From positions 1 through 27,873 of the IMG/VR virus record IMGVR_UViG_3300044612_000489: a DNA stretch of 27,873 nt. One strand, written 5' to 3'. Origin of the DNA: a virus. A program made the translations under genes and the position numbers. The notes below the pieces were generated by a model that worked only from the letters and a program-made list of their open reading frames with translations, did not search any database and was not told the DNA's origin. Of this stretch, positions 7,996-20,280 are shown in pieces (position 1 is the stretch's first letter; every line of letters starts with the position of its first letter).

Positions 7996-8026
7996 ACCGT
8001 TCATCATTTTATTTGACCGTTCGTCA
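7996..8026 (+). promoter_or_regulatory. Tandem operator-like direct repeat, ACCGTTCATCA / ACCGTTCGTCA, 20-bp period
   Basis: ACCGTTCATCA at 7996-8006 and ACCGTTCGTCA at 8016-8026 lie exactly 20 bp (about two helical turns) apart. The same pair, also at 20 bp, occurs upstream of the promoter at 19.0 kb (18961-18991). The second copy starts 18 bp upstream of the TTTG (-33) element. Position and phasing suggest a binding site for a dimer or two adjacent monomers of a regulator; the protein is unknown. Confidence 0.7.
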
Positions 8027-8033
8027 CCTTTTA

Positions 8034-8065
8034 TTTGGTTGGTATGTGTATAACCTGTATATTTG
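8034..8065 (+). promoter_or_regulatory. Bacteroidota-type promoter (TTTG / N20 / TATATTTG)
   Basis: TTTG at 8034-8037 and TATATTTG at 8058-8065 match the -33 TTTG and -7 TAnnTTTG elements of Bacteroidota primary-sigma promoters, with a 20-base spacer in the known 19-21 range. Transcription would start near 8072, giving a leader of about 38 bases that ends AAAACCAAC-ACAA before ATG 8111. It probably drives the replication operon. Confidence 0.75.
8045..8053 (-). promoter_or_regulatory. DnaA box (TTATACACA on the minus strand) inside the promoter spacer
   Basis: TGTGTATAA on the plus strand is the reverse complement of TTATACACA, a full match to the TTATNCACA DnaA box. It lies between the -33 and -7 elements. 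The phage encodes its own DnaA domain-IV protein at 10297, so autoregulation by it, or control by host DnaA, is possible. The second promoter has a two-base insertion (TGTGTATATAA) that breaks the box. A single 9-mer can arise by chance. Confidence 0.4.
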
Positions 8066-8110: not shown

Positions 8111-8299
8111 ATGAAAAAGACAACAACAGGTTTCAAAGAAACTAAAAAAATTTGGAATCAACAACCATTTCTTGAAAAGCTTTTATTCTTAATGAACCAA
8201 TTTAAAATTTCACAAGATGAAGCTGAAAGGTTAGCCAAATTAGAATTTGATAAAATAGCAATTGGCTACAAATATCAAATTTATCTATTTTTAAACTAA
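8111..8299 (+). CDS. Small first gene of the replication operon (62 aa)
   Basis: I place the start at ATG 8111, downstream of the promoter and leader, not at the upstream TTG in the same frame. The product is a basic, helical protein (GFKETKKIWNQQPFLEKLLFLMNQFKISQDEAERLAKLEFDKIAIGYKYQIYLFLN). The segment ISQDEAERLAKLEF resembles a small helical repeat, but no family is recognised. It is followed by the CAGGGGTGCG hairpin, the same arrangement as at the 19.0-kb promoter. Confidence 0.6.
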   Translation: MKKTTTGFKETKKIWNQQPFLEKLLFLMNQFKISQDEAERLAKLEFDKIAIGYKYQIYLFLN

Positions 8300-8335: not shown

Positions 8336-8548
8336 ATGACTATAACAAACGAAACAATTGGCGAATTGTATTTAAGAAACACAAACCGCGCCGCAGATTA
8401 TGCAGGTACTTTGGGATTCAGTCGTGGAACTTTAAGTTTAATTTTAAAGTATGTCAAAGAAAATGACATTGAACGTATTGAAAGCCTTGCACACGAAGCA
8501 TTAGAAGAAATTGAAAACGTATTTATTAAACATCAAATAAATTTATAA
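8336..8548 (+). CDS. Small helical protein, possible DNA-binding (70 aa)
   Basis: The stretch AADYAGTLGFSRGTLSLILKYVKEND could be a helix-turn-helix (helix, GFS turn, RGTLSLILKYV recognition helix), followed by an acidic helix (DIERIESLAHEALEEIENVF). If so this would be an early regulator. The ATG directly follows the T-run of the hairpin, leaving no space for a ribosome-binding motif, which is tolerated in Bacteroidota. The stop overlaps the next ATG. Confidence 0.6.
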   Translation: MTITNETIGELYLRNTNRAADYAGTLGFSRGTLSLILKYVKENDIERIESLAHEALEEIENVFIKHQINL

Positions 8549-8825: not shown

Positions 8826-9446
8826 ATGAAATTAGTAAAAATTCAGGCGGAATTAAAAGCGCCCAAAGGACAATTAAACAAATTCGGCAATTATCGTTAC
8901 CGCAGCGCCGAAGATATTATTGAAGCGGTAAAACCAATACTTCACAAACACGGTTGCGCGCTACTTATTAGCGACGAAATTGTGCAGGTTGCTGACCGCG
9001 TATATGTAAAAGCGACGGCAATGATATTTGATGAACAACACGTTGACTTTCAATTTAGGTCGCACGGTTGGGCGCGTGAAGAAGAAGTAAAAAAAGGAAT
9101 GGACGCCGCACAAATAACAGGGTCAGCTTCTTCGTATGCCCGCAAATATGCCCTAAACGGACTGTTTGCAATTGACGATACCAAAGACGCAGACGCAACA
9201 AACGAACACAAAGACGAAGTCGGGAATGACAGACGTTTATATTTGTTAACCTTGTTGGAATCCACGACATACGAAGAACAGGCAAAAGAAAAGTTGGCAG
9301 TACGTATTGAAGCAATAACAACAAATGAATCATACGACAAAGCTTTATTAAACCTGCAATCAAACCAAATACAGGACAAAGACCGTATTGCAATGGGTAT
9401 GAATTATAATCAAACAGACATTAAGAAAACAACAAAAAGAAAATAA
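8826..9446 (+). CDS. erf: ERF-family single-strand annealing recombinase
   Basis: A 206-residue ERF protein. The N-terminus APKGQLNKFGNYRYRSAEDIIEAVKPIL (residues 12-39) and the core QITGSASSYARKYALNGLFAIDDTKDAD (96-123) are the two conserved ERF blocks. These proteins form rings that anneal complementary single strands in phage recombination and genome circularisation or repair. The C-terminal third is variable and ends in a basic tail (KKTTKRK), as in relatives. It lies in the replication operon with an SSB-like gene and the initiator downstream. Its stop overlaps the next gene's ATG (TAATG). Confidence 0.88.
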   Translation: MKLVKIQAELKAPKGQLNKFGNYRYRSAEDIIEAVKPILHKHGCALLISDEIVQVADRVYVKATAMIFDEQHVDFQFRSHGWAREEEVKKGMDAAQITGSASSYARKYALNGLFAIDDTKDADATNEHKDEVGNDRRLYLLTLLESTTYEEQAKEKLAVRIEAITTNESYDKALLNLQSNQIQDKDRIAMGMNYNQTDIKKTTKRK

Positions 9447-12456: not shown

Positions 12457-12771
12457 ATGGACATATCCGCAAACGACCTTACAAAATGGGCGAAGACAAA
12501 CCTTGAATTAATTGGTTGGCGTTTAAATAGGGTTAACAATATACCATTTGGAAAACGAAAAGGTACAGTTCAAAAAGGTTGGGCGGACATACAAGGTTAT
12601 ACTGAAAAAGGTGTATATGTAGCGGTTGAAGTTAAAAAGATTGGCGACAAACTAAGCAAAGAACAAAGGGAACGATTAAAAGATATTTTTGAATGTGGTG
12701 GGATTGTCTATATTTGTACTGAAGTAGAAAACAAACCTGCTTTAATTGAATGGTCAAAAATAAAATTTTAG
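12457..12771 (+). CDS. VRR-NUC / PD-(D/E)XK nuclease (104 aa)
   Basis: The core KGWADIQGYTEKGVYVAVEVKKIGDKLSKEQRERLKDIFECGG has the restriction-fold signature: Asp44 in WADI, Glu58-Val-Lys60 in the EVK motif and Gln70 in the following helix. This matches stand-alone phage VRR-NUC proteins, thought to act on branched or flapped DNA during replication and recombination. The following strand (GIVYICTE) is also present. Its end overlaps the next gene by 22 bases. Confidence 0.8.
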   Translation: MDISANDLTKWAKTNLELIGWRLNRVNNIPFGKRKGTVQKGWADIQGYTEKGVYVAVEVKKIGDKLSKEQRERLKDIFECGGIVYICTEVENKPALIEWSKIKF

Positions 12772-13250
12772 CTGAATTTTGGGACTTAAAAGAAGTCAAC
12801 GAAGCATTTGGCAAAATGCAACCTGAAGAATTGCGGTATGACCTGAAGGCAGAAGTTTTTTTAGTTCTTTGTGAAATGGACGAACAGAAGTTAATTGGAT
12901 TGTATGAACGAAACGAATTAAGATTTTATATTGTGCGAACAATGTTAAATATGATTAAAAGCGACAGAAGTACATTTTATAAAAATTACCGCAACCATAT
13001 TGAATTTGTTGCGTCTGATTTGAACAGGGAAATTAAACGTATAAATGACGAACCAACGGATTTGATTGATAAATTGGAAAAGAATTTGGAAGGTTTACAT
13101 TGGTACAATAAGGAAATATTAAAACTATATGCAATTGATTTTAAAAAGAATGCAAAAGAACTAAGCAGAAAAACAGGCATTCCATATATGTCAATTGTTA
13201 GAACTATAAATAAAACCAAAAAACAAATGAAACAAAACATACGCAAATGA
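12750..13250 (+). CDS. Sigma-factor-like regulatory protein (166 aa)
   Basis: The N-terminal half (ELRYDLKAEVFLVLCEMDEQKLIGLYERNELRFYIVRTMLNMIKSDRSTFYKNYR) resembles sigma-70 region 2: DLKAEVFLVL corresponds to the DLxQEVFLxL helix, and the next helix to the core-binding and DNA-melting region. The C-terminal helix-turn-helix (NAKELSRKTGIPYMSIVRTINKTKKQMKQNI) resembles region 4 or an ArpU-type activator. Such proteins in Bacteroidota phages are usually called sigma-like. It is a good candidate for the late or middle regulator and for the protein recognising the ACCGTTCATCA repeats. Confidence 0.65.
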   Translation: MVKNKILAEFWDLKEVNEAFGKMQPEELRYDLKAEVFLVLCEMDEQKLIGLYERNELRFYIVRTMLNMIKSDRSTFYKNYRNHIEFVASDLNREIKRINDEPTDLIDKLEKNLEGLHWYNKEILKLYAIDFKKNAKELSRKTGIPYMSIVRTINKTKKQMKQNIRK

Positions 13251-13486: not shown

Positions 13487-13803
13487 AACAAGAACACCGC
13501 GACTTTTTAGACGCTAATATTAACAATTACGAAAGCGCGCAAAATGGATATATCCGAAATTTGGATTTACCCGAACTTCAAATGTACGAACACATTTACC
13601 GTTTATATTTAGACCCTAATTTTTTATTGTCTGTTTGGTGCGGCGCTTGTAAGTTTGATATGATTATGCGTTTATACAATTGGTATGTGGCACAACCTAA
13701 ACAAGTTGAACCTAAACCAATACGTGAACAATTTGAAACAGTTGTAAATGCAATTGAAAAAGAAATAAAGAAACGCGGACGTAAACCAAAAGCAAATGGC
13801 TAA
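13477..13803 (+). CDS. Conserved hypothetical protein with basic RGRKPK tail (108 aa)
   Basis: Start chosen at ATG 13477 (MEIKQEHRDFLD), with 13468 as an alternative; both overlap the membrane protein gene. A helical body with ELQMYEHIYRLYLDPNFLLSVWCGACKFDMIMRLYNWY contains another CxxC (CGAC). The C-terminus KEIKKRGRKPKANG is AT-hook-like, so DNA contact is possible. The pair of neighbouring genes with Cys pairs recurs in related phages as I remember them. Confidence 0.55.
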   Translation: MEIKQEHRDFLDANINNYESAQNGYIRNLDLPELQMYEHIYRLYLDPNFLLSVWCGACKFDMIMRLYNWYVAQPKQVEPKPIREQFETVVNAIEKEIKKRGRKPKANG

Positions 13804-14275
13804 TTTTATACACCCAACCGCCATAATTGGCGACAACGTTATTTTAGGCGACAACAACTACATTGGCGCTTTTTGTATTATTGGCGACCCCGCAGAACAT
13901 AAAAAATATTGGGGTCAAGAAAAAGGCAAAGTAATTATTGGAAACAATAACATTGTTACCGGATTGGTTACAATTGACGCCGGAACTGAACTGCCAACTA
14001 TTATTGAAGACGGTTGTTTTATTATGAAACACGCGCATATCGGTCACGATTGCCGAATAATGAATAATGTAACAATAAGCTGCGGCGCAAAGATTGGGGG
14101 TCATTCAATTATAGGTGAAGGTTCAAACATTGGATTGAACGCAGTATTGCATCAATTCAGTATAATAAAAAGGGGTTGTATGATTGGCGCAAGCGCTTTT
14201 TTCAAAGGTGAATCAGAACCCGAAATGAAATATGCCGGTGTACCTGCAAAATATCTTTCATCAAATAAAAAATAA
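13796..14275 (+). CDS. LpxA-like hexapeptide-repeat acyltransferase (159 aa)
   Basis: Left-handed beta-helix hexapeptide repeats run through the protein (HPTAIIGDNVILGDNNYIGAF, VIIGNNNIVTG, and later repeats with VTISCGAKIGGHSIIGEGSNIGLNAVL). KHAHIGHDC at 78-86 matches the LpxA active-site segment, with His84 at the place of the catalytic His. It is shorter than LpxA (about 260 residues) and lacks the C-terminal helical domain; it ends MKYAGVPAKYL like sugar acyltransferases. It likely transfers an acyl group to a nucleotide sugar or glycan. It is the first gene of a four-gene glycan-type cassette. Confidence 0.8.
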   Translation: MANFIHPTAIIGDNVILGDNNYIGAFCIIGDPAEHKKYWGQEKGKVIIGNNNIVTGLVTIDAGTELPTIIEDGCFIMKHAHIGHDCRIMNNVTISCGAKIGGHSIIGEGSNIGLNAVLHQFSIIKRGCMIGASAFFKGESEPEMKYAGVPAKYLSSNKK

Positions 14276-14281
14276 AAAACA

Positions 14282-14872
14282 ATGAATGAATTTGATAAAT
14301 GGCGCGAACGCTACGATACAATGACAATTGATGAACAAATAGTTTATCATAATGAATTAGAAGCACGTTATCCTGAACAAAATCATTATAACTATGATAA
14401 CGTTAAGGAAGCATTATTGCTTTGTAATAAACCAATAGTTTTAGAATTTGGAACTTGGAAGGGCGATTTAGCTAAACAAGCTATGCAAGACTTTAACATA
14501 TTAGATTGGTATGGAATAGAAATTTGCGAAGCTGCAATTCGTTCAACTAAATGCAAAGAAGTTAATTACATTAAGCCTACAAAATTTGATTGGTTTAAAG
14601 ATAAAAGAACAATAAAAGCCGATATTATCATAGCAACACATTTTATTGAACATTTAAGTAACGACCATTTTGAACAGTTAGCTAAATATTGCAAAGGGGT
14701 TAAATATATACATTTTGAATCCCCGTTGACAAACGACGGGAATAATTGGGTTGGTTACGAGGGTACACATAAACTAACAATAGGTTGGAATAAAATAAAC
14801 GAAATAATGAAACAAAACGGATTTAGTTTAATTATTGATAAACCTGAAAGCAAAACCTATGACCAAACTTGA
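14282..14872 (+). CDS. SAM-dependent class I methyltransferase (196 aa)
   Basis: Motif I is PIVLEFGTWKGDLAKQAM (51-68), the glycine-containing SAM loop; Glu80 (YGIEI) is placed to bind the ribose; and IIIATHFIEHLSNDHFEQLA (115-134) is the strand-4 motif. The rest is a typical seven-strand methyltransferase pattern ending in KINEIMKQNGFSLIIDKPES. No DNA-methylase NPPY or DPPY motif is present, so a small-molecule or glycan substrate is more likely. It lies between an acyltransferase and two glycosyltransferases. Confidence 0.75.
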   Translation: MNEFDKWRERYDTMTIDEQIVYHNELEARYPEQNHYNYDNVKEALLLCNKPIVLEFGTWKGDLAKQAMQDFNILDWYGIEICEAAIRSTKCKEVNYIKPTKFDWFKDKRTIKADIIIATHFIEHLSNDHFEQLAKYCKGVKYIHFESPLTNDGNNWVGYEGTHKLTIGWNKINEIMKQNGFSLIIDKPESKTYDQT

Positions 14873-14887
14873 TTCAAATATTAGAAA

Positions 14888-15577
14888 ATGAATATAGCCG
14901 TAATTTTACTAAACCTAAACAGAAACCATTTAGCAAAACGCGTTGTTGACCAAAATTTTAAAAATGCGGGACACAATGCGGATTGTTTTTTGGTTGACAA
15001 TGGCAGCGACGAAGTGCCGTATGACATTTACAATTGGACAAATTGCAATGTTTCAACAAAGAAACGCGGTATTTCCGCAGGTGTTAACGCCGGTTTAAAT
15101 ATGACACGCGCATACGACGGGGTATGTTTATTAGCAAATGACATTCTTTTACCTGATAATTGGTTGTCAAATTGGGTTATGTTTGCAGAACGTGTATCAA
15201 AAACGGGCATTATTGGCATACATTGTGTTGAAGATTTGCCACCATTGGTTGACGGAATTCATAAAACACACGTGCCATTTGGCGATAATTTTATAACAAG
15301 GGAATTGATTGACACTATTGGTGGTTACAATACAGAATACGACCCGTATGGAATGCAAGACCGCGATTATGCCGAACGCGCAATAATTGCAGGATTTACA
15401 AACTATTACATACCTGATTTACGTTCTGAACATATTGGACACGACGTTGGAAATGGTACAGAATACCGACAAATGAAGGACGAAAGTTTACAACGCGCAC
15501 AGGCAGTTTGGGAAAAATACCAACCAATTTACCATACAGAAAAAAAAATTTATGCGGATTTTAGCAATAACAAGTAA
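14888..15577 (+). CDS. Family 2-like (GT-A) glycosyltransferase (229 aa)
   Basis: The nucleotide-binding start AVILLNLNRNHLAKRVVDQNF, then FLVDNGSDE (35-42), RGISAGVNAGLN (60-71) and LLANDILLPDNW (81-92) are the GT2 pattern. Asn-Asp at 84-85 stands where the metal-binding DxD normally lies. The acceptor-side GGYNTEYDPYGMQDRDYAERAIIAGF (around 143-168) contains the ED/QD motif. It would add a sugar to a glycan in the cytoplasm. It has no membrane segment. The end overlaps the next glycosyltransferase by 26 bases. Confidence 0.85.
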   Translation: MNIAVILLNLNRNHLAKRVVDQNFKNAGHNADCFLVDNGSDEVPYDIYNWTNCNVSTKKRGISAGVNAGLNMTRAYDGVCLLANDILLPDNWLSNWVMFAERVSKTGIIGIHCVEDLPPLVDGIHKTHVPFGDNFITRELIDTIGGYNTEYDPYGMQDRDYAERAIIAGFTNYYIPDLRSEHIGHDVGNGTEYRQMKDESLQRAQAVWEKYQPIYHTEKKIYADFSNNK

Positions 15578-16559
15578 AACAAGCGGGGTCGCTTACCATA
15601 GAATCATAATGCCAATAGTCAATATGCAAAAAGATTATTGTTTAATGACCGATACATTAAGCGAAGAAACATTTGAAGGCAATTACGATATTGTCGTTAT
15701 GAATAGAATGTTGGCTAATATAACACCTGAACAAATGGACGCTTGGCGTACAAAGTACGGTTTTAAATTAATTGTTGACAATGACGACTATTGGTATTTA
15801 GACCCTTCGCACATTTTACACGAACGATATGTTTTAAATAATGTTAGTCAGCAAATTATAGATTGGATTCGTATTGCCGACCTTTGCACAGTTACGCACG
15901 AACGATTAGCTGAAGAAGTAAAGCCATACAATACCAATATTGAAATTGTGCCAAATGCTATTCCTTACGGCGAAGAACAGTTTAAGGATTTTAAAAAAGA
16001 TTCAGACCTTGTTCGTTTATTTTGGTCAGGTTCGGGAACGCACGGCAAAGACTTGGAAATATTACGTAACCCAATGAAGCGTATTAATTTTCCTGTACGT
16101 ACAGTTATTGCCGGATTCAATGAAGGCGAAAAGCCAATTTGGGACGGAATGATTTGTGCATTTACCAACGGACTAAAACTAAACCCAACTATTTACAATT
16201 TTAATCAGGTTACCGAATATATGGCAGCCTATGCGGATTCAGATATTTCATTAATACCATTAATTGATTCAAAGTTTAATTCAATGAAGTCTAATTTAAA
16301 GGTACTTGAAACCGCAGCAAAGAAAAACCCCGCCATTGTCAGTAACGTACACCCGTACAAAGGATTTTATCCCGCCTGTCACGTCAATAGCCAAAAGGAT
16401 TGGTACTATTGGATAAAACTATTAACCAAAGACCCTGACGCCCGTAAAAGCTACGGAAACGCTTTATACGACTATTGCAATAAGAACTTCAATTTACACG
16501 AAGTAAATAAACACCGATTCGCTATTTATAAAAAACTAATAGGCAATGCCGGTAATTAA
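15552..16559 (+). CDS. GT-B (family 4-like) glycosyltransferase (335 aa)
   Basis: Two Rossmann-like halves are visible: MRILAITSKTSGVAYHRIIMPI with a first domain to about residue 150 (LIVDNDDYWYLDPSH, CTVTHERLAEEV, EIVPNAIPYGEEQF), then VRLFWSGSGTHGKDLEIL and the C-terminal donor-binding region SDISLIPLIDSKFNSMKSNLKVLETAAKKNPAIVSN. The Ser-Met-Lys-Ser ... Glu pattern matches the E-x7-E-type donor site of GT4 enzymes. Such proteins are known in marine and freshwater phages, usually with a GT2 neighbour. It overlaps the genes on both sides. Confidence 0.8.
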   Translation: MRILAITSKTSGVAYHRIIMPIVNMQKDYCLMTDTLSEETFEGNYDIVVMNRMLANITPEQMDAWRTKYGFKLIVDNDDYWYLDPSHILHERYVLNNVSQQIIDWIRIADLCTVTHERLAEEVKPYNTNIEIVPNAIPYGEEQFKDFKKDSDLVRLFWSGSGTHGKDLEILRNPMKRINFPVRTVIAGFNEGEKPIWDGMICAFTNGLKLNPTIYNFNQVTEYMAAYADSDISLIPLIDSKFNSMKSNLKVLETAAKKNPAIVSNVHPYKGFYPACHVNSQKDWYYWIKLLTKDPDARKSYGNALYDYCNKNFNLHEVNKHRFAIYKKLIGNAGN

Positions 16560-17733: not shown

Positions 17734-18885
17734 ATGCGCATTGAGTTACCAACACCACATATTAACCAAAGGCAAATATTGGATTCCAATAAACGTTTTA
17801 TTGTCGTTATGTGCGGACGTCGTTTTGGTAAGTCAGAACTTTCACAAATACTTGGAATCACAGAAGCTTTAAAAGGCGGGTCAGTTGCATACGTTACACC
17901 GACATACGGATTGGCACAGGTATTCTTTGAACGCTTGACAAAGACATTGCCATTTAAAAACAATATTTCAAAGCTTAAAATCTATTGTCCCAACGAAGGT
18001 TCAATTGAATTCTTTACAGGTGAAAGGTTGGACAACTTGCGCGGTCGTAAATTCCATTTGGTTATTATTGACGAAGCAGCTTTTATTTCAGACCTTGAAG
18101 ACGGTTGGTCAAATAGCATACGCCCAACCCTGACCGATTACGAAGGGCGTGCGGTTTTCCTTTCAACACCACGCGGTAAGAACTTTTTTTATTCCCTGTT
18201 TATGAAGCAGGGCGAAAACGATTGGCAAAGTTTTAAATTTAGCACCTATGACAACCCGCATATAAACCCCCGTGAAATAGACGACGCCCGAATACAATTA
18301 CCTGAAGTCGTTTTTAATCAGGAATACTTAGCAGACCCCGCAGAAAATAGCGCCAACCCTTTTGGGAACGCATTTATTAGACGTTGCATAAAACCATTAT
18401 CAGCACAGACAATTGTTTGTTACGGGATTGACCTTGCAAAGTCTGTTGACTTTACTGTTATCATTGGTTTAGATAAAAGCGGAAACGTGGCTTATTTTGA
18501 CCGCTTCCAATTGGATTGGCATAACACTAAGGAAACCATAAAAAGATTGCCGCCTGCGCCTATAATCGTGGATTCAACGGGTGTTGGCGACCCGATACTT
18601 GAAGACTTATTGCGCGAAGGTGTAAACATTGAAGGTTTAAAGTTTACAAGTCAAAGCAAACAACAATTAATGGAAGGTTTAGCTTCAGCCATTCAACAGG
18701 CTAAAATCGGATTTCCTGAAGGGGTTATTGTGGACGAATTAGACGTGTTTGAATATCAGTTCACCGCAAACGGTGTAAGGTATTCAGCGCCGTCCGGATT
18801 CCACGACGATTGCGTTGTTGCATTGGCTTTGGCTTGGCAAAATCACGCAGTTAAACGTGGCAATGGTCGTTACGCCTTTGCTTAA
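17734..18885 (+). CDS. terL: Terminase large subunit (383 aa)
   Basis: A complete packaging motor. ATPase: Walker A CGRRFGKS (27-34), Walker B LVIIDEAAF (109-117, Asp113-Glu114) and the coupling motif STPRG (144-148). Nuclease: RNase H-like acidic residues Asp233 (GIDLAKSVDF), Asp280 (VDSTGVGDP) and Asp358/359 (HDDCVVALALAW). Length is at the short end for the family, as in many Bacteroidota phages. It is the last gene before the structured gap at 18886-19073. No Shine-Dalgarno motif is seen. Confidence 0.93.
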   Translation: MRIELPTPHINQRQILDSNKRFIVVMCGRRFGKSELSQILGITEALKGGSVAYVTPTYGLAQVFFERLTKTLPFKNNISKLKIYCPNEGSIEFFTGERLDNLRGRKFHLVIIDEAAFISDLEDGWSNSIRPTLTDYEGRAVFLSTPRGKNFFYSLFMKQGENDWQSFKFSTYDNPHINPREIDDARIQLPEVVFNQEYLADPAENSANPFGNAFIRRCIKPLSAQTIVCYGIDLAKSVDFTVIIGLDKSGNVAYFDRFQLDWHNTKETIKRLPPAPIIVDSTGVGDPILEDLLREGVNIEGLKFTSQSKQQLMEGLASAIQQAKIGFPEGVIVDELDVFEYQFTANGVRYSAPSGFHDDCVVALALAWQNHAVKRGNGRYAFA

Positions 18886-18960: not shown

Positions 18961-18991
18961 ACCGTTTATCCTTATTATTTACCGTTCATCA
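18961..18991 (+). promoter_or_regulatory. Tandem operator-like direct repeat, ACCGTTTATCC / ACCGTTCATCA, 20-bp period
   Basis: ACCGTTTATCC at 18961-18971 and ACCGTTCATCA at 18981-18991, exactly 20 bp apart as in the first promoter region. The second copy starts 38 bp upstream of TTTG, against 18 bp in the first region. The difference is 20 bp, so the helical face is kept. Confidence 0.7.
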
Positions 18992-19018: not shown

Positions 19019-19051
19019 TTTGGAATGTGTATATAACCTGTTATATATTTG
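19019..19051 (+). promoter_or_regulatory. Bacteroidota-type promoter (TTTG / N21 / TATATTTG)
   Basis: TTTG at 19019-19022 and TATATTTG at 19044-19051 with a 21-base spacer match the Bacteroidota primary-sigma promoter. ATGTGTATATAACCTG in the spacer nearly repeats the first promoter's spacer (two extra bases). The leader ends AAAACCAAC-GTT before ATG 19074. It probably drives the small genes and, if read through, the tail chaperone. Confidence 0.75.
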
Positions 19052-19073: not shown

Positions 19074-19382
19074 ATGCAAAACTTCACATTAAAATTCGGA
19101 AAGTACAAAGGGTTGCAATTTTTAAGCACACCCGTTTCTTATCAAAATTGGTTATTAAAACAGGATTGGTTTAAAATGCCTGTGGTTTTAACTGAAATGC
19201 AACAAGCACAAAAAATGGTTAGCCAATATGCCAATAAATTAAAAGGTTGGAATGGCTATTCAAAATCAGGTGCAGTAGCTTATGATAATATGTTTGAAGC
19301 TGAAAAAGCTATGGACGCAGCTTATTATAATGATTCAGACCCTTCTTCACCACGTTGGAATGGTGAATATAACTTTTTATAA
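19074..19382 (+). CDS. FGKYKG-motif protein, DUF3820-like (102 aa)
   Basis: I place the start at ATG 19074, just after the leader. The N-terminal segment FTLKFGKYKGLQFLSTPVSYQNWLLKQDWF is the FGKYKG...YLxWL module known as DUF3820 or the small C-terminal domain of some exonuclease X-like proteins. A helical linker and an acidic, aromatic end (AAYYNDSDPSSPRWNGEYNFL) follow. As the first gene after the second promoter it takes the same position as the 62-aa gene after the first. Confidence 0.65.
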   Translation: MQNFTLKFGKYKGLQFLSTPVSYQNWLLKQDWFKMPVVLTEMQQAQKMVSQYANKLKGWNGYSKSGAVAYDNMFEAEKAMDAAYYNDSDPSSPRWNGEYNFL

Positions 19383-19920: not shown

Positions 19921-20280
19921 ATGATAACAAATTTTGAATACCTTACAAGGGAAATGACCGACGAAGAAAAGAAGTTAGTGCCAATTCTGATAAAAGGATT
20001 TAGCACCAAGACAAAAGAAACGCCAATTAAAGCGCCTGAAATAGTACAGGCAATTAATGACAAACGCGAAAGCTTAGGTTTAAAAATAAACTTTTCTGAA
20101 GTCAGGTTGCGAAAAATAGTTAACTTTATAAGGGCAGAAGGCATATTGCCGTTAATAGCGACGTCAAACGGTTACTATTGCAGCAATGACAAAGAAGAAA
20201 TAAAGAACCAAATTGAAAGCTTAACGCAACGCGCAGAAGCAATAATGTCAAGCGCTAACGGACTTAATAAATTTATATAA
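19921..20280 (+). CDS. Winged-helix-like conserved phage protein (119 aa)
   Basis: The segment KAPEIVQAINDKRESLGLKINFSEVRLRKIVNFIRAEGILPLIATSNGYYCSNDKEEIKNQIESLTQRAEAIMSSANGL is a pattern conserved among Bacteroidota phages: FSExRLRKIVNxIRxxGIxPxIATSxGYY looks like a winged helix whose wing is the ATSNGYY turn, followed by a long helix. It may bind DNA and regulate the genes around it, so it is a further candidate for the protein acting at the tandem repeats nearby. Confidence 0.6.
   Translation: MITNFEYLTREMTDEEKKLVPILIKGFSTKTKETPIKAPEIVQAINDKRESLGLKINFSEVRLRKIVNFIRAEGILPLIATSNGYYCSNDKEEIKNQIESLTQRAEAIMSSANGLNKFI

Follow-up and report, generated by a model that had tools for sequence, protein, structure and literature searches.

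Two distant promoters in the window (the whole stretch of 27,873 nucleotides analysed here, from a virus of Bacteroidota) carry tandem ACCGTTYRTC pairs, at 7996/8016 (P1) and 18961/18981 (P2), with a period of exactly 20 bp. Their sequence makes a strong case for predicting that each pair is a LytTR-type direct-repeat operator, and we consider it reasonably likely that this operator serves a host-encoded activator of the LytTR family. The elements of both promoters are as follows.

7996..8006, + strand: P1 operator, distal half-site ACCGTTCATCA; 7997-8005 is CCGTTCATC, which is also the AlgR site of rhlI (PMC4064291)
8016..8026, + strand: P1 operator, proximal half-site ACCGTTCGTCA; 8017-8025 is CCGTTCGTC, the AlgR consensus (PMC4064291)
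8034..8037, + strand: P1 -33 element TTTG, 9 nt past the 9-bp LytTR core of the proximal repeat
8058..8065, + strand: P1 -7 element TATATTTG, predicted start site 4-5 nt downstream
18961..18971, + strand: P2 operator, distal half-site ACCGTTTATCC (sequence match)
18981..18991, + strand: P2 operator, proximal half-site ACCGTTCATCA; 18982-18990 is CCGTTCATC
19019..19022, + strand: P2 -33 element TTTG, 20 bp farther from the operator than that of P1
19044..19051, + strand: P2 -7 element TATATTTG (sequence match)

The four repeats and the 20-bp spacing of both pairs agree with the original prediction, as do the distances from the proximal repeat to TTTG, which are 18 bp at P1 (8016 to 8034) and 38 bp at P2 (18981 to 19019). 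The -33/-7 spacers are 20 bp (TTTG 8034) and 21 bp (TTTG 19019). TTTG and TAnnTTTG with about 20 bp between them form the consensus of the Bacteroidota primary (sigma-A) promoter (PMC6847099), the same assignment that had been made from the sequence, and P1 and P2 are predicted promoters that fit this consensus. Both operators are direct repeats located wholly upstream of the -33 element; an operator of the CI/Cro phage repressor type, which needs palindromes overlapping the promoter, was therefore rejected.

No further exact ACCGTTYRTCM match was found beyond these four half-sites across the 27,873-base record and, in the proposed search of the rest of the genome, no other exact ACCGTTYRTC pair. 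By chance, the base composition of the record predicts 0.08 single half-sites and ~1e-7 pairs at period 20. The 11-mer alone with up to 2 mismatches was seen 9 times against 6 expected, which is not significant by itself, and the weight of the observation rests on the exact pairing, the promoter position, and the conservation.

Similarity to LytTR operators

Sites of AlgR in Pseudomonas aeruginosa include the core CCGTTCGTC, CCGTTCATC at rhlI, and CCGTTTGTC at algD RB3 (PMC4064291). The half-sites of the window are these sequences or combinations of them. AlgR is a LytTR response regulator, and its sites frequently occur singly or at large distances from each other, whereas those of the virus always form an exact 20-bp tandem pair on a Bacteroidota promoter. 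LytTR operators have been described as two 9-mers 11-13 bp apart that lie 4-11 bp upstream of the -35 box, and a Bacteroides example ends in TATCTTTG (PMC6193735). The layout of P1 (9 bp - 11 bp - 9 bp - 9 bp - TTTG) agrees with these published operators. The distance from the LytTR core to TTTG is 9 nt at P1, inside the 4-11 bp range, and 29 nt at P2, and several relatives have intermediate helical steps.

Operators of the LytTR Regulatory System (HdrR/BrsR type; Bacteroides thetaiotaomicron, B. ovatus) likewise place two direct repeats at a distance of about two helical turns. They sit 4-11 bp before the -33/-35 box, and those of Bacteroides precede TATCTTTG. In contrast to that system, which autoregulates an adjoining LytTR gene, the phage has the operator without a LytTR gene, and its P2 operator is one extra 20-bp step away.

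Conservation and gene content in related phages

Related phages were picked by their terminase (terL) rather than by the motif, and their records are mostly fragments. The P2 pair is present at the homologous place after terL in 64 of the 78 relatives, with period 20 in all 64, and the P1 pair is present in all 11 relatives whose sequence covers P1 (11/11). The suggested search of related phages found this arrangement to be conserved. The genes relevant to this comparison are listed below.

8111..8299, + strand: first gene after P1, 62 aa, seldom conserved (in 3/55 TTC-type terL-selected loci)
8826..9446, + strand: ERF recombinase gene of the P1 (replication) operon (Pfam PF04404, E 2e-39; in 16/55 TTC-type loci)
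17734..18885, + strand: terminase large subunit, terL (PF03237 over cutoff)
19074..19382, + strand: first gene after P2, 102 aa, seldom conserved (in 3/55 TTC-type relatives)

P2 lies directly behind terL in all relatives used. Its first gene (19074..19382) has weak similarity to QSregVF_b (Pfam E 0.0016, below cutoff), and the terS-like neighbour of this gene is present in 54 of 55 TTC-type relatives. The pattern is that of a constant switch with changing cargo, in which the predicted promoters would drive small, quickly replaced genes while the neighbours stay. Complete relatives have a third operator-promoter, P3 (G013 10245, G030 25156, G045 24668), which is located on the opposite strand and reads small genes among those of the capsid region. 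The window lacks P3, since its record is fragmentary. By eye, the window also shows clustered sugar/acyl-transferase-like, methyltransferase-like, and glycosyltransferase-like genes at 13796-16559, within a small phage.

In a subclade with ~85% terminase identity both half-sites switch together to ACCGCTTATC, and other members have lost the pair and retained the -7 box. We sought a matching P1 variant in the ACCGCTTATC subclade, as expected for a coupled change at P1 and P2, and this idea was rejected, since P1 has no operator there and only P2 has one. Because this subclade retains the P2 operator only, P1 and P2 are not strictly coupled. The earlier view that two Bacteroidota-type promoters share one operator is supported. 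The operator is also dispensable, as one subclade lost it entirely and another kept only that of P2. Isolated relatives were sought, with weak matches only (Elizabethkingia phage TCUEAP1 at 24%).

Spacing between operator and promoter

To describe the geometry, we used 54 AT-rich sites deduplicated at 85%, nearly all of them viral, 40 of which have a -7 box. Distances from the first repeat to the -7 box cluster at 62-64, 70-72, and 80-84 (Rayleigh R 0.78 at period 10); the p-value of this clustering is limited by homology, as the deduplicated promoters are not all independent. These ~10-bp steps across the deduplicated promoters support the earlier view that the helical phase is preserved. At homologous P1 promoters, one subclade has a distance of 62/64 and another one of 81/82, a two-turn shift, and shifts of ~20 bp in the operator-to-box distance occur at both homologous P1 and homologous P2. 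Several promoters of the 62-64 class are without a -33 TTTG, which would be expected if the -33 contact were replaced by an activator. Judged from the sequences, ~10-bp phasing together with absent -33 boxes is the signature of a putative activator touching RNA polymerase from one helix face.

Two other readings of the repeats bear on this geometry. Since AlgR acts as both activator and repressor (PMC4064291), a host LytTR regulator might bind the pair and repress or silence the phage promoters, and the subclade in which the operator was lost and the promoter retained is compatible with escape from such silencing. We regard repression as unlikely. The sites are upstream of the -33 box and never over -33/-7, they are helically phased, some of the promoters have no -33 box, and a harmful site would hardly be kept in 64 of 78 relatives. 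It is more improbable still that the repeats act as iterons in replication or as packaging sites instead of as a transcription operator, although direct repeats of ~20 bp do lie beside the replication operon and beside terL; there are only two copies per place and two or three places per genome, their position is fixed relative to the promoter and helically phased, and identical pairs precede ordinary genes in bacteria. An operator for a LytTR-family activator remains our preferred reading of these pairs.

Operator pairs in cellular genomes

Hosts seldom have the exact pair. We found it in 5 of the 395 Bacteroidota genomes, compared with none for the reversed control, and the exact AT-rich form has four matches in 84,980 species genomes; with 2 mismatches, the counts were 32 versus 18 for the control. 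A broad host regulon was rejected given this rarity in Bacteroidota genomes, and a host regulon would be small, degenerate, or limited to unsampled lineages because the exact pair is rare in hosts.

Where the exact pair does occur, it is linked to LytTR genes. A PF04397 (LytTR) gene is located within 4.3 kb of it, a limit chosen after the data were seen, in six of nine independent cellular genomes versus 0.11 expected (P ~5e-11). Genomes with such a gene are G054, G401, G077, G158, G052, and G053, and none was found near the pair in G389, G649, and G1170. G051 was left out of the nine, as it has the same locus as G052 on a contig that stops short of the LytTR gene. A held-out check of the linkage in two other phyla yielded two new genomes (G649 and G1170), both without a LytTR gene nearby. 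Variant pairs (ACCGCTTATC and GCCGTTCGTC) adjoin LytTR genes in G136 and G139, and that of G089 is likewise beside one. Several host sites immediately precede genes that encode secreted or outer-membrane proteins.

At the Clostridia MAG loci L204 and L205, an exact tandem pair is found just behind an AgrC-like histidine kinase gene and ahead of genes that encode small, possibly secreted proteins. In the L205 genome (G052), the pair is 1.4 kb from a LytTR gene. A multi-copy 21-bp array of ACCGTTCGTCCAARCCGTCAA is present in G649 (C1:34759-34894), with no LytTR gene nearby.

Candidate regulators of the phage promoters

PF04397 was not detected in any of the 97 operator-bearing or related viral records, and an HMM built from the LytTR domains of hosts, which recovered all host controls, matched none of 15,935 viral ORFs (best E 0.42). 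The idea of a phage-encoded LytTR protein was rejected, as none was found in these records. As these phages have no detectable LytTR gene, we infer that the LytTR activator is provided by the host, and a host-encoded origin is probable from the sequence evidence.

The candidates originally proposed were a sigma-like protein (12750), a winged-helix-like protein (19921), and a possible HTH protein (8336), all encoded by the phage. None of these follows the state of the operator. The winged-helix-like protein is retained in relatives without the operator as well, and the possible HTH protein is absent from several phages with three operators. A host regulator is likelier than these proteins because the half-sites are of the LytTR/AlgR type and the phage does not encode this family. 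The small proteins of 8336-8548 and 19921-20280 belong to PHROG families 2119 and 2113, respectively, and the latter is kept in nearly all relatives.

The sigma-like protein deserves separate mention. Within the window group it is strongly conserved (17 records), and the model of 12750-13250 is all-helical with modest confidence, its best structural matches being nearly all sigma factors; these matches are not significant (best E 0.025). That it reads the repeats is highly unlikely, since relatives with an intact, a switched, and a lost operator show equal identity (81/81/81%, with 77% in L188), and a direct repeat that lies 41-91 bp ahead of the start is not one that a sigma factor would recognise.

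A phage-encoded regulator of another family might also read the pair and coordinate the phage operons. The exact pair is far commoner in viral contigs than in cellular genomes, and each phage holds only two or three pairs, all at promoters, which has the look of a private phage regulon. We nevertheless judge this possibility rather unlikely. Protein clustering at the BLAST level revealed no family common to all operator-bearing phages, and no candidate family links the Bacteroidota-type with the GC-rich groups. In sequence, moreover, the pair belongs to a cellular family already known, to whose genes it is linked.

With a host-encoded LytTR-family activator, each pair would be one operator bound by a dimer of a LytTR-family (AlgR/AgrA/LytR-type) protein, with its two direct-repeat half-sites separated by two helical turns and placed ahead of the -33 region in a promoter of the Bacteroidota sigma-A type. 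The reader, probably a response regulator, would recruit the host RNA polymerase to P1, P2, and (in complete relatives) P3 during infection, and phage transcription would then hinge on the signalling state of the host. If right, this links the gene programme of uncultured phages, in a readable way, to a host signalling family that is abundant in Bacteroidota, predicts host genes required for infection, and shows a regulator-free way to coordinate phage operons. A search for prophage relatives returned none in the 395 Bacteroidota genomes, and host assignment by prophage search or tRNA gave no result.

Wider distribution of the tandem site

The tandem pair is present in at least 119 viral stretches compared with 11 for the complement-pattern control. 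About half of these stretches are AT-rich Bacteroidota-type phages with period 20, and the remainder are mostly GC-richer records with period 21, some of which have sigma-70-like or sigma-54-like elements downstream. The presence of this tandem site at promoters of other types in GC-rich viral contigs points to a broader phenomenon.

Some phage promoters are known to rely on transcription factors of the host, the phage DNA carrying sites for the cellular regulator. The same principle would apply here; in our partial search of the literature, we found neither a LytTR-family example nor any report of LytTR-type operators in phages, and a search for the bare repeat sequence returned nothing relevant. 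It is conceivable, if still somewhat doubtful, that phages of several bacterial groups, unrelated to one another, have each independently put promoters under host LytTR-family signal regulators, tying their expression to two-component or cell-density signalling. If true, the coordinated half-site changes from ACCGTTCATC to ACCGCTTATC would record switches between host regulators.

Sigma-54-like elements follow the pair at 6 of 52 sites, versus 0.13% of random positions. At viral loci with GC-rich or mixed composition (L026, L038, L045, L065, and L090), 21-bp pairs are followed by a sigma-54-like TGGCA-N-TTGC; a combination of LytTR with sigma-54 would be unusual.
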